Positions 46,426 through 49,091 of a stretch of 54,916 nt of DNA are shown here, in pieces. Position 1 is the stretch's first letter; every line of letters begins with the position of its first letter. Position numbers and translations under genes: made by a program. The notes under the pieces are model-generated. The model was not told where the DNA came from, made no database searches, and saw only the letters and a list, made by a program, of their open reading frames with translations. Source of the DNA: Mycolicibacterium chubuense (GTDB lineage Bacteria; Actinomycetota; Actinomycetes; Mycobacteriales; Mycobacteriaceae); assembly GCF_001044255.1 (NCBI RefSeq), contig NZ_JYNX01000039.1, positions 60,687-115,602 on the forward strand, given 5' to 3'.

Positions 46426-46819
46426 CTCAGGACGCGACGCTATCAACCCCGCCGATCTGTTGAGCGCGTCAGTTAACAGTTCGTGGTGACCATGTTACGA
46501 ACAGGAAAACTGATCGACGAATGTCGACTTCGATTCGGGCAGCGCGGAATTAACTGACCGGGAGAAATGGCGCCTAAAGAGGCGGTGGATCGGTCGGCGA
46601 TATCACCTCACTCGTTGCGAACGGGTCGCACCGATGAACGTGATGTAAATTTTCTGCCTGCGCGTATGCGGTTTCGCACACAGGGGCGGTATTGACGGAA
46701 ATTCGTGAGCCCTTCTACGTTGTGTGCACGAGTGGTCATCGGCGACTGTGCTCGGATCTTTTCCACGACTGACACAACCACGTCGTCCGCGAAATGGGTG
46801 TGCAGAGAGGGGTTTCGCA
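46426..46819. promoter_or_regulatory. 394-bp intergenic region upstream of whiB3
   Basis: No credible gene is visible here. A SigA-like promoter for whiB3 is present: -35 TTGACG (46692-46697), 18-bp spacer, -10 TACGTT (46716-46721), giving a leader of about 90 nt. Closer to the divergent gene lies GTTCGT-N12-ACGAAC (46479-46502), whose centre contains GGTGACC, in an AT-richer stretch with TTAACAG/TTAACTG motifs. WhiB3 is a redox and acid-responsive regulator in Mtb, so long-range control is expected. Confidence 0.55.
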
Positions 46820-47110
46820 GTGCCACAGCCGCAGCAGCTTCCCGGTCCGAACGCCGACATCTGGGATTGGCAGATGCAAGGCCTTTGCCGGGGAGTCGAT
46901 TCCTCGATGTTCTTCCATCCCGACGGGGAGCGTGGCCGGGCCCGCGCCCAGCGGGAGATGCGCGCCAAAGAGATGTGCCGCAGTTGCCCGGTGATCACCC
47001 AGTGCCGTTCGCACGCGCTGGCCGTCGGTGAGCCCTACGGCATCTGGGGCGGGCTGAGCGAGTCCGAGCGCGAGCTTCTGCTCAAGCGGGGGATCCGCCG
47101 GTCGGCCTGA
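46820..47110 (+). CDS. whiB3: Redox-sensing iron-sulfur regulator WhiB3
   Basis: A 96-residue WhiB protein with the four cluster ligands Cys23, Cys53, Cys56 and Cys62 at the same positions as Mtb WhiB3, the GIWGG turn (75-79) and a C-terminal basic end (LLLKRGIRRSA). It binds a 4Fe-4S cluster responding to O2 and NO, interacts with the principal sigma factor and controls lipid and redox metabolism. GTG at 46820 was chosen because VPQPQQLPGPNADIW is the family N-terminus; GAGAGGGG precedes it. Mtb neighbours are the same on the left, but here a thiocyanate hydrolase operon follows instead of groEL1. Confidence 0.95.
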   Translation: MPQPQQLPGPNADIWDWQMQGLCRGVDSSMFFHPDGERGRARAQREMRAKEMCRSCPVITQCRSHALAVGEPYGIWGGLSESERELLLKRGIRRSA

Positions 47111-47166: not shown

Positions 47167-47172
47167 TAGGCT
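47167..47172 (+). promoter_or_regulatory. -10 hexamer for the thiocyanate hydrolase operon
   Basis: TAGGCT (TANNNT) ends 7 nt before the GTG at 47180, consistent with a leaderless mRNA. No ribosome binding site precedes the start. Confidence 0.45.
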
Positions 47173-47179
47173 GCGACAG

Positions 47180-48016
47180 GTGAGCACGGCCGCTGAACGC
47201 GCTGCCCAACTCGACCTCGTCGCCCGGCTGAAGTCGGCGTTCCCCGAACTCCCCGACGCTCCCCCGCCCGACATGCTCGATCCCGCGCGAATCAAGGCCT
47301 ATCTCAAGCCGGTTCACGATGTCGGCGGGGAACCCGACGCGCCGATGAAGTACGAGAACAAGCAGTACGAAACCTGGGAAGAGCTCACCTACGTCATGTG
47401 CGAGGTGCTGGCCTGGCGCGGCATCTGGCTCTCCGAGGAACGTCGCCGCATCGGCAACGTCGACGTCGGCCGGGCCGAGTACCTGGGACTGCCCTACTAC
47501 GGCCGGTGGCTCCTCGCGGTCGCCCGGGTGCTGGTGGAGAAGCACCACATCGGCCTCGGTGAGCTCAGCGAGCGCATGGCCGAGGTCAAGGACCGCTACG
47601 CCGGCGGACTCGACGGCCGGACCCCTGACGCCGCGCCCAAGTCGGAGGGCGACGGCGCCGGGGTGCGGCGCAACGCCCACCATCGGCACGCCGTCGGCAA
47701 AGGCGATCCGCAGGTGTACGCCGGTCTGGCCGGGGAACCGAAGTTCGCGGTCGGCGACGCCGTCGTCGTGCGGGATCTGCCGGTGGTCTTCTACACCCGC
47801 ACCCCCGAGTACGTGCGCGGGGCGACGGGACGGATCGCCACCGTGGCCTACGAGAGTCCGGCCGCCGAGGACGAGACCTGGGACCGCCCCGACGCCCGGC
47901 CCGAGTGGTTCTACGTGGTCGAGTTCAACCAGTCGCAGCTGTGGCACGGCTACACGGGCACCGCCACCGACACTTTGCGCACCGAACTGCCCGAGCGCTG
48001 GCTCGCCGCCGTCTGA
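47180..48016 (+). CDS. scnBA: Fused thiocyanate hydrolase beta-alpha subunit (nitrile hydratase beta superfamily)
   Basis: A 278-residue protein with two parts. Residues 45-140 (HDVGGEPDAP, CEVLAWRGIWLSEERRR, YLGLPYYGRWLLAVARVLVEK) correspond to the beta subunit (ScnB) of thiocyanate hydrolase from Thiobacillus thioparus. Residues 170-278 (GKGDPQVYAGLAGEPKFAVGD, FYTRTPEYVRGATGRI, YESPAAEDE, LRTELPERWL) correspond to its alpha subunit (ScnA). A linker of about 28 residues joins them. The order equals the scnB-scnA order of that operon and also the two domains of nitrile hydratase beta. The complex would hydrolyse SCN- to COS and NH3. Assignment rests on remembered sequences; a nitrile hydratase beta chain is the alternative. 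Confidence 0.78.
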   Translation: MSTAAERAAQLDLVARLKSAFPELPDAPPPDMLDPARIKAYLKPVHDVGGEPDAPMKYENKQYETWEELTYVMCEVLAWRGIWLSEERRRIGNVDVGRAEYLGLPYYGRWLLAVARVLVEKHHIGLGELSERMAEVKDRYAGGLDGRTPDAAPKSEGDGAGVRRNAHHRHAVGKGDPQVYAGLAGEPKFAVGDAVVVRDLPVVFYTRTPEYVRGATGRIATVAYESPAAEDETWDRPDARPEWFYVVEFNQSQLWHGYTGTATDTLRTELPERWLAAV

Positions 48017-48044
48017 ACGCTGCTGTCGGAGAAGGGAAACCGCC

Positions 48045-48752
48045 GTGTCCCACGATCATGACCACGATCACGATCGGACCGTGAAGCCGATGGTGGACGA
48101 GATCACCGACTTCGAGGTTCTCGAGATCGCATTGCGCGAACTGTGTATCGAGAAGGGTATCTTCACCGCCGAAGAGCACCGGCGGTTCACCGAGTTCGCC
48201 GAGCAGATCGGCCCGACGCCCGCGGCCCGCCTGGTCGCCCGCGCGTGGCTGGATCCGGACTTCAAGCGCCTCGCGCTCACCGAACCGATGACGGCGAGCA
48301 AGGAGGTCGGCGTCGATTGGATGGAGCCGACCGGATTCGGAACACCCAGCGACTTCACGGCTTTCGAGATCCTCGAGGACACACCCACCGTCCACCATGT
48401 GATCGTGTGTGCGCTGTGCTCCTGCTACCCCCGGCCGATCCTGGGCAATTCGCCCGAGTGGTACCGCACCCCGAATTATCGCCGGCGCCTGGTGCGCTGG
48501 CCGCGGCAGGTGCTCGCCGAATTCGGCCTGTACCTGCCCGACGACGTCGAGGTCCGGGTGCAGGATTCCAACCAGAAGCACCGCTTCATGGTGATGCCGA
48601 TGCGCCCCGACGGCACCGACGGCTGGTCCGAAGACCAACTCACCGAGATCATCACGCGTGACTGCCTGATCGGGGTGGCGCTGCCCAAGCCCGGCGTCAC
48701 CACCAACGTGATCACCGATACCCGCCCGGCCCTGCACCCGATGAGCGACTGA
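48045..48752 (+). CDS. scnC: Thiocyanate hydrolase gamma subunit / nitrile hydratase alpha family (metal-binding chain)
   Basis: A 235-residue chain with the metal claw V121-C-A-L-C-S-C127 (Cys122, Cys125, Cys127), in which the last two Cys are oxidised to sulfinic/sulfenic acids around low-spin cobalt in thiocyanate hydrolase. Flanking YPRPILGNSPEWYR, RRLVRWPRQVLAEFGL and WSEDQLTEIITRDCLIGVALP resemble T. thioparus ScnC more than typical nitrile hydratases, as does the His-Asp N-terminus (SHDHDHDHD). GTG at 48045 has GAAGGGAAA upstream. It follows the fused subunit by 28 bp and precedes a small accessory gene by 3 bp. Confidence 0.85.
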   Translation: MSHDHDHDHDRTVKPMVDEITDFEVLEIALRELCIEKGIFTAEEHRRFTEFAEQIGPTPAARLVARAWLDPDFKRLALTEPMTASKEVGVDWMEPTGFGTPSDFTAFEILEDTPTVHHVIVCALCSCYPRPILGNSPEWYRTPNYRRRLVRWPRQVLAEFGLYLPDDVEVRVQDSNQKHRFMVMPMRPDGTDGWSEDQLTEIITRDCLIGVALPKPGVTTNVITDTRPALHPMSD

Positions 48753-48755
48753 GTC

Positions 48756-49091
48756 GTGGAGAGCTCAGCGCTGCAGCAGATCGTCGAACGCAACCAGGTG
48801 TGGACGCGAATGGCGGCCAAGTACGGCGTCGAGAATCCGGTGCCGCCGTGGAAGACCAGCCTCGACGGACTGTGTGACGCACTCGATCGGGCGGCGTGCG
48901 AGGCCGACGTCCCGACCTTCAAGGAGCGTCGCGACGAGGAGGACTCTCTGGTGGCCACGATGTACGCCGAGTTGCCGTACCCGGAGAATCAGCTAGTGGC
49001 GCTGGCCCATTCCCTGCTGGCGCGCGGCGTGATCACCGAGGCGGACCTGCAGCAGCGGATAGCCGCGATCCGCGCACGCCTGGAGGCCTAG
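48756..49091 (+). CDS. Nitrile hydratase/thiocyanate hydrolase accessory (maturation) protein
   Basis: A 111-residue protein resembling the N-terminal domain of nitrile hydratase beta subunits (PWKTSLDGLCDALDRAACEADVPTF in parts, YAELPYPENQLVALAHSLLARGVITEADLQQRI). Such small proteins (P15K of T. thioparus, P14K/NhlE of Rhodococcus) act as chaperones inserting cobalt into the metal chain, often by subunit swapping. Gene order beta, metal chain, accessory is that of cobalt-type systems. GTG at 48756, 3 bp after scnC. The stop overlaps that of convergent thrE by 4 bp (CTAG). Confidence 0.78.
   Translation: MESSALQQIVERNQVWTRMAAKYGVENPVPPWKTSLDGLCDALDRAACEADVPTFKERRDEEDSLVATMYAELPYPENQLVALAHSLLARGVITEADLQQRIAAIRARLEA

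Follow-up and report, generated by a model that had tools for sequence, protein, structure and literature searches.

A probable two-chain thiocyanate hydrolase with joined beta and alpha subunits in Mycolicibacterium chubuense

Mycolicibacterium chubuense carries three consecutive genes, all on the + strand, that probably encode a cobalt thiocyanate hydrolase (SCNase) built from two structural chains and acting on thiocyanate (SCN-). The textbook case of an enzyme that arose through division of a nitrile hydratase (NHase) subunit is SCNase, with its separate ScnA (alpha), ScnB (beta) and ScnC (gamma, metal-binding) chains, whereas here the two pieces occupy a single polypeptide. The assignment draws on homology, gene order, SCNase-specific residues, conservation and purifying selection, and what we propose for metal, cysteine oxidation, activity and assembly is carried over from the enzyme of Thiobacillus thioparus. 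The window, by which we mean the whole 54,916-nucleotide stretch of DNA analysed, lies on one contig (G000:C39) of a 5.95-Mb assembly of 96 contigs. Its relevant features are as follows.

46724..47110, + strand: WhiB-family regulator (Pfam Whib), the upstream neighbour, outside the conserved core of the operon
47167..47172, + strand: candidate -10 element TAGGCT, for a putative leaderless transcript from the GTG of the fused gene
47180..48016, + strand: fused SCNase beta-alpha chain, 278 amino acids (ScnB-like approximately 1-144, linker approximately 145-163, ScnA-like approximately 164-276)
48045..48752, + strand: scnC, probable SCNase gamma (metal) chain, 235 amino acids, with the claw VCALCSC; named from TIGR03887, 2dd4_C and its clade
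48756..49091, + strand: putative P15K-type activator or maturation protein, 111 amino acids, named from position and homology

The fused chain and its operon

In phmmer searches, residues 9-144 of the 278-residue chain align with residues 11-146 of ScnB (2dd4_B, E 1e-38) and residues 164-276 align with residues 12-124 of ScnA (2dd4_A, E 3e-33); the matches to NHase beta chains are at E 2e-11 or weaker. Pfam divides the chain into NHase_beta_N and NHase_beta_C. A first-pass annotation, made from the sequence alone, had described a natural fusion with an ScnB-like N-terminal third and 110 ScnA-like C-terminal residues. Its coordinates and its reading are correct except for the size of the ScnB-like region, which makes up about half of the chain.

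The fusion itself is borne out, because both parts lie in one intact open frame and each of the 50 genomes of the genus whose flanking sequences were read has them joined as well, which together exclude a sequencing artefact. The gene is under purifying selection (pN/pS 0.17-0.32 in five pairs), and within the linker A151, P153, G157, D158, R164 and N165 are invariant in 18 aligned rows. The predicted structure of the fused chain, computed from an 18-row alignment, is of low confidence (mean pLDDT 52.7), which we count against the SCNase reading. Since ScnB and ScnA are not separate polypeptides but share one frame, we classify the operon as an SCNase variant rather than as the textbook three-chain enzyme.

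Compared with the T. thioparus enzyme (ScnA/ScnB/ScnC; PDB 2dd4, 2dd5), the operon has the same three modules, the same claw cysteines and serine, and the same pocket arginines, and its order of B, A, C and activator is that of L061, a Hydrogenophilales metagenome-assembled genome (MAG). It differs in joining ScnB and ScnA by a conserved linker and in having alanine for threonine in the claw. The split operon of this MAG (L061:5187-6618) runs ScnB, ScnA, ScnC, and the order given for T. thioparus in a passage of PMC7193024 is alpha, beta, gamma.

The small accessory gene that the first-pass annotation had placed after the metal chain is recognizable as part of the same system. Its 111-residue product shares 41% identity with the protein encoded after scnC in L061, whose own ScnC shares 96% identity with T. 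thioparus ScnC, and fused and split loci alike have an accessory gene after scnC. Against NHase_beta_N it scores 20.9 bits, just under the cut-off of 21.5. A title within the reference list of PMC3511329 names P15K as an activator of SCNase, and by its position the L061 gene may well be P15K.

By analogy with T. thioparus, the 278-residue chain would stand in for both ScnB and ScnA and dock on ScnC, whose CALCSC claw would hold Co(III) after oxidation of two cysteines, and the small downstream protein would act as an activator that helps to load the metal into the gamma chain. The assembled enzyme would hydrolyse SCN- to carbonyl sulfide (COS) and NH3, with NH3 entering nitrogen assimilation and COS being cleaved by a COS hydrolase of the beta-carbonic anhydrase type whose gene lies elsewhere. 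We count it against this reading that the literature passages we searched yielded no enzyme assay for the fused group.

The metal chain and the active-site residues

One alternative is that the operon encodes an ordinary nitrile hydratase, composed of beta, alpha and activator proteins, that acts on organic nitriles. Cobalt NHases have a beta subunit colinear with the fused chain and a homologous metal chain, the Pfam names are those of NHases, and the order beta, alpha, activator is that of most cobalt NHases according to the portion of PMC7193024 available to us. Yet the metal chain scores 394 bits against TIGR03887, the SCNase gamma equivalog (cut-off 291.45), and falls short of the NHase alpha model TIGR01323 (206.9 bits, cut-off 249.85); the NHase beta equivalog is likewise missed (86.2 bits, cut-off 152.2). 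Its best PDB match is ScnC (2dd4_C, 369 bits), aligned from residue 2 and thus including the His-Asp N-terminus, and the best NHase alpha chain, at 193 bits, lies 176 bits behind. In the phylogeny that the first-pass annotation had proposed as a check, the chain does not fall inside NHase alpha but groups with T. thioparus ScnC in an SCNase clade apart from the NHases (support 100/100).

Residue-level comparison gives the same answer. We defined 80 diagnostic columns that distinguish split SCNases (four loci and T. thioparus) from 64 NHase-like rows, and the window retains 57 of these, compared with 44 to 59 in other fused rows and 0 to 8 in NHase-like rows. The other 23 positions (22 changed, one gap) count against an SCNase.

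The residues that weigh most are two arginines of the active-site pocket, beta R90 and gamma R136, which reportedly control the selectivity of SCNases. Both are present in the window: the fused chain has the first as R88 and ScnC has the second as R130. The residue equivalent to ScnB R90 is arginine in all five split SCNase rows and in 18 of the 19 fused rows, the exception being a gap (the 19 include one gene twice), versus none of the 64 NHase-like rows. The second position is arginine in all 24 SCNase rows and tryptophan in 15 of 16 classical NHases, and PDB entry 3vyg differs from 2dd4 by an arginine-to-tryptophan change at this site. However, R130 alone is no proof of an SCNase, because arginine also occupies this position in 46 of 48 rows from a group of three-gene NHase-like loci.

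On the models, the tree and the residues, including arginine where classical NHases have tryptophan and an equivalent of ScnB R90, we rejected an NHase identity as very improbable. The earlier description of the second gene as a cobalt-claw chain (VCALCSC) with an ScnC-like His-Asp N-terminus, and of the enzyme as SCNase-type rather than NHase, is upheld by these same data.

The claw, at residues 121-127 of the metal chain, keeps the cysteines and serine of C-x-L-C-S-C but replaces threonine with alanine, and this departure from T. thioparus and from the sampled NHase-like rows also counts against an SCNase. Alanine is found here in 66 of 83 fused SCNase locus rows, threonine in 15 and serine in two (several rows repeat one gene), in contrast to threonine in all seven split SCNase rows and in 71 of 72 other rows, the last of which lacks the motif.

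Because alanine thus occurs in no split SCNase (0/7) and in none of the 71 NHase-like rows with a readable motif, it might mark a shift of an SCNase-derived enzyme toward another small substrate, for example cyanate, cyanamide, isothiocyanate or CS2. In one close relative the operon adjoins an HD gene that resembles cyanamide hydratase, although the match is below the family cut-off. This explanation is improbable, as the fused relatives with a threonine claw (15/83 rows) belong to one clade with the alanine ones, both pocket arginines are kept, and the HD gene occurs in just one of 40 regions searched, some of them overlapping. A thiocyanate hydrolase is still the reading that we prefer.

The ScnC gene (48045-48752) scores 53.4 bits against the NHLP leader-peptide model TIGR03793 (cut-off 50.9), a route to false annotation as a ribosomally synthesized peptide (RiPP). 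A second, divergent SCNase type, with ScnC 73-74% identical to that of the window, occurs in one genome of the same genus (L038) and in another genus of the family (L039), the latter with the claw CCSLCSC. Serine in this claw position is typical of Fe-type NHases. The three-gene NHase-like group (most of L041-L060 and L114-L146), found in Actinomycetota and Alphaproteobacteria and mostly with arginine at the ScnC R136 position, may be mistaken for either SCNase or NHase.

Distribution and origin of the fusion

Strong relatives across the genus rule out an operon unique to the M. chubuense genome. A match at E 1e-20 or better is present in 290 of 396 genomes of the genus, and 264 remain as carriers of a strong relative after removal of the 26 whose best E value, counted from the listing, is weaker than 1e-100; these 26 are perhaps NHases or fragments. 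All 75 locus rows of the window's family, drawn from the 50 genomes, from named loci and from a second genus represented by two genomes, are fused, with several rows repeating one gene.

Beyond the genus, a draw of 396 Actinomycetota genomes gave nine above the SCNase cut-off, all in the family of the window, and an order-level draw gave 16 of 200 genomes, in two of 60 genera. SCNase is rare in Pseudomonadota: the phylum draw (1/398) and the Alphaproteobacteria draw (1/385) each recovered only the centre genome itself, and two families in the phylum gave 1/105 and 1/82 genomes. Among plasmid records, 178 have any match and two exceed 60% identity, both annotated scnC. Both fused and split SCNases occur outside mycobacteria. 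The sets at L068, L069 (another actinobacterial MAG), L118 and on two plasmids are fused, and those at L061-L064 and L165 are split.

The two-chain build is an unusual architecture of known enzyme chemistry that is widespread in the genus, and our search of thiocyanate hydrolase literature, in the passages available, found no description of a fused ScnB-ScnA chain. The plasmid SCNases of Roseomonas marmotae and Azospirillum ramasamyi are two-chain enzymes as well, annotated as an 'SH3-like domain-containing protein' plus scnC, but their fused chains are 35-37% identical to that of the window, with a different, longer linker and a threonine claw. IS elements surround these plasmid genes (L116, L117), and genes for cobalt transporters (CbtAB or HupE) and for TauE/SafE exporters lie alongside. 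Natural subunit fusion has another precedent in the superfamily, the NHase of Monosiga brevicollis as outlined in part of PMC2603476; that enzyme unites its metal chain with the other subunit, whereas the present operon keeps the metal chain apart and joins the halves of beta to each other.

The nearest outgroup of the SCNases is the three-gene group, which is large and encodes the two halves of beta separately; its first two genes overlap in 44 of 48 loci, by 4 nt in 37 of 48, when the start codon nearest the stop of the first gene is used. The split SCNase loci overlap in three of four cases, by 14-17 nt, and classical NHases with a whole beta subunit form a clade of their own. Our first trees, computed without L165, nested the split SCNases among the fused ones (95/90), while a single clade of all fused rows was not rejected (p 0.075), and removal of the two plasmid rows brought the remaining fused rows into one clade (60/34).

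L165 is a split SCNase with a 14-nt overlap that is placed beside the fused plasmid pair (94/86). The plasmid pair thus sits next to a split enzyme, and its fusion is probably a separate event. With L165 included, one clade of all 18 fused rows is rejected (AU p = 0.0075), which eliminates a single shared origin of all fused chains. The best concatenated tree then implies two fusions from a split ancestor (three changes), compared with four changes for a fused ancestor, although the other 16 fused rows form a clade at only 86/64 and a position of L165 outside the rest of the SCNases is not rejected (p 0.24). These results support at least two separate changes between fused and split states within SCNases.

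The first-pass annotation had offered an evolutionary intermediate or a re-fusion, and of these we lean toward the mycobacterial chain being a re-fusion of formerly separate subunits. It may instead be an ancestral, unsplit beta subunit kept from NHase, with the three-chain Thiobacillus enzyme as a later split, a possibility that we rate a little below an even one. Agreeing with this alternative are the trees without L165 and a quick tree of the ScnB and ScnA block, which roots the SCNase clade among fused rows. Against it stand the best concatenated tree with L165 and the three-gene split enzymes as nearest relatives, and our initial reading of the trees, that the fused state is ancestral, was weakened both by adding L165 and by removing the two plasmid rows. 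The quick block trees (ScnB plus ScnA alone, and ScnC alone) root the SCNase clade elsewhere, with three and four changes, and the stem of this clade is long (0.9-1.7 changes per column) and its placement weakly supported.

Genomic setting and a candidate role in nitrogen supply

The first-pass annotation had also treated the insertion of the operon between whiB3 and groEL1 as a hint that SCN- may be a source of nitrogen or sulfur or a target of detoxification. The upstream WhiB gene is presumably whiB3, judging from synteny, and a ThrE-type exporter gene plus a smaller open reading frame separate the operon from groEL1. A functional link to this site is not supported, as a WhiB gene adjoins the operon in the window but in only three of 20 other fetched mycobacterial regions (G054, G275 and G342), two of which also have groEL1, and is missing from that place in the remaining 17. 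The arrangement is local to close relatives and so says little about function. Beyond the operon itself, each gene family is found in at most eight of 32 regions, and a different neighbourhood is common to seven of them.

Among these 32 regions, whose gene clusters were unannotated, we saw no transporter-like partner that recurs in most of them, and we count this against an SCNase, as we do the WhiB and ThrE-type exporter genes that directly border the operon in the window. Thiobacillus loci, by comparison, have transporter and sulfur genes as neighbours (PMC5328954, in excerpt), including a NitT/TauT transporter, and alphaproteobacterial loci have cobalt transporters; we count this contrast in the same way.

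In the close relative L093, the genes on either side of the operon are an HD gene (L093:10287-10877, - strand), which resembles the cyanamide hydratase family below the family cut-off, and an NAD(P)-binding gene (L093:7496-8260, - strand). Genes of these types were not found in the window, where approximately 70 nt separate the WhiB gene from the operon.

A TANNNT hexamer that begins 13 nt before the start codon is present in three of 59 non-redundant upstream stretches (the window and its near relatives L002 and L004), which suggests that the transcript may be leaderless, with the GTG start codon as its first nucleotides. At many other loci the sequence ahead of the start codon is rich in purines and lacks this hexamer. 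A GlnR-like box was found in none of the 59 upstream stretches of 130 nt by a strict pattern, a weak test whose outcome we count against the SCNase reading.

Published expression data from Mycobacterium smegmatis strengthen the first-pass suggestion that thiocyanate serves as a nitrogen source. MSMEG_6266 and MSMEG_6267, which have adjoining locus numbers and are comparable to the genes of the window by their annotation as SCNase beta and gamma, are induced 3.68- and 3.42-fold under nitrogen limitation (PMC4617892, in part), and they are about 2.4-fold up in a PII mutant on nitrate (PMC11001197, in part). MSMEG_6266 is probably fused as well, since the portions of the expression tables available to us include no alpha subunit. 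From such expression in print we infer a role in nitrogen supply.

For the second product, COS, the genome of the window has three beta-carbonic anhydrase family matches, one of which reaches 290.8 bits with Rv1284 and matches the T. thioparus COS hydrolase 3vqj at E 3e-36. With an Rv1284-like beta-carbonic anhydrase related to COS hydrolase in the same genome, the COS step is plausible but not specific. Mycobacterium strains are described as COS degraders in passages of PMC7308577 and PMC5745022.

Our broadest proposal is a tentative one, and we hold it to be rather unlikely as a whole: that mycobacteria as a genus possess a separately re-fused, two-chain, mostly alanine-claw SCNase as an enzyme of nitrogen starvation. 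If this were true, the genus would represent a large unrecognised sink for thiocyanate and source of COS in soil, and its host-associated species would be consumers of host thiocyanate. Because the members of the genus that were read lack the cut between ScnB and ScnA, and other lineages alternate between fused and split forms, natural enzymes offer a test of what joining or splitting these chains does to activity and assembly. Should the enzyme prove active, it would explain in molecular terms why mycobacteria make as well as consume COS, and it would give the nitrogen-regulated M. smegmatis genes, whose role is unproven, a function that can be tested.
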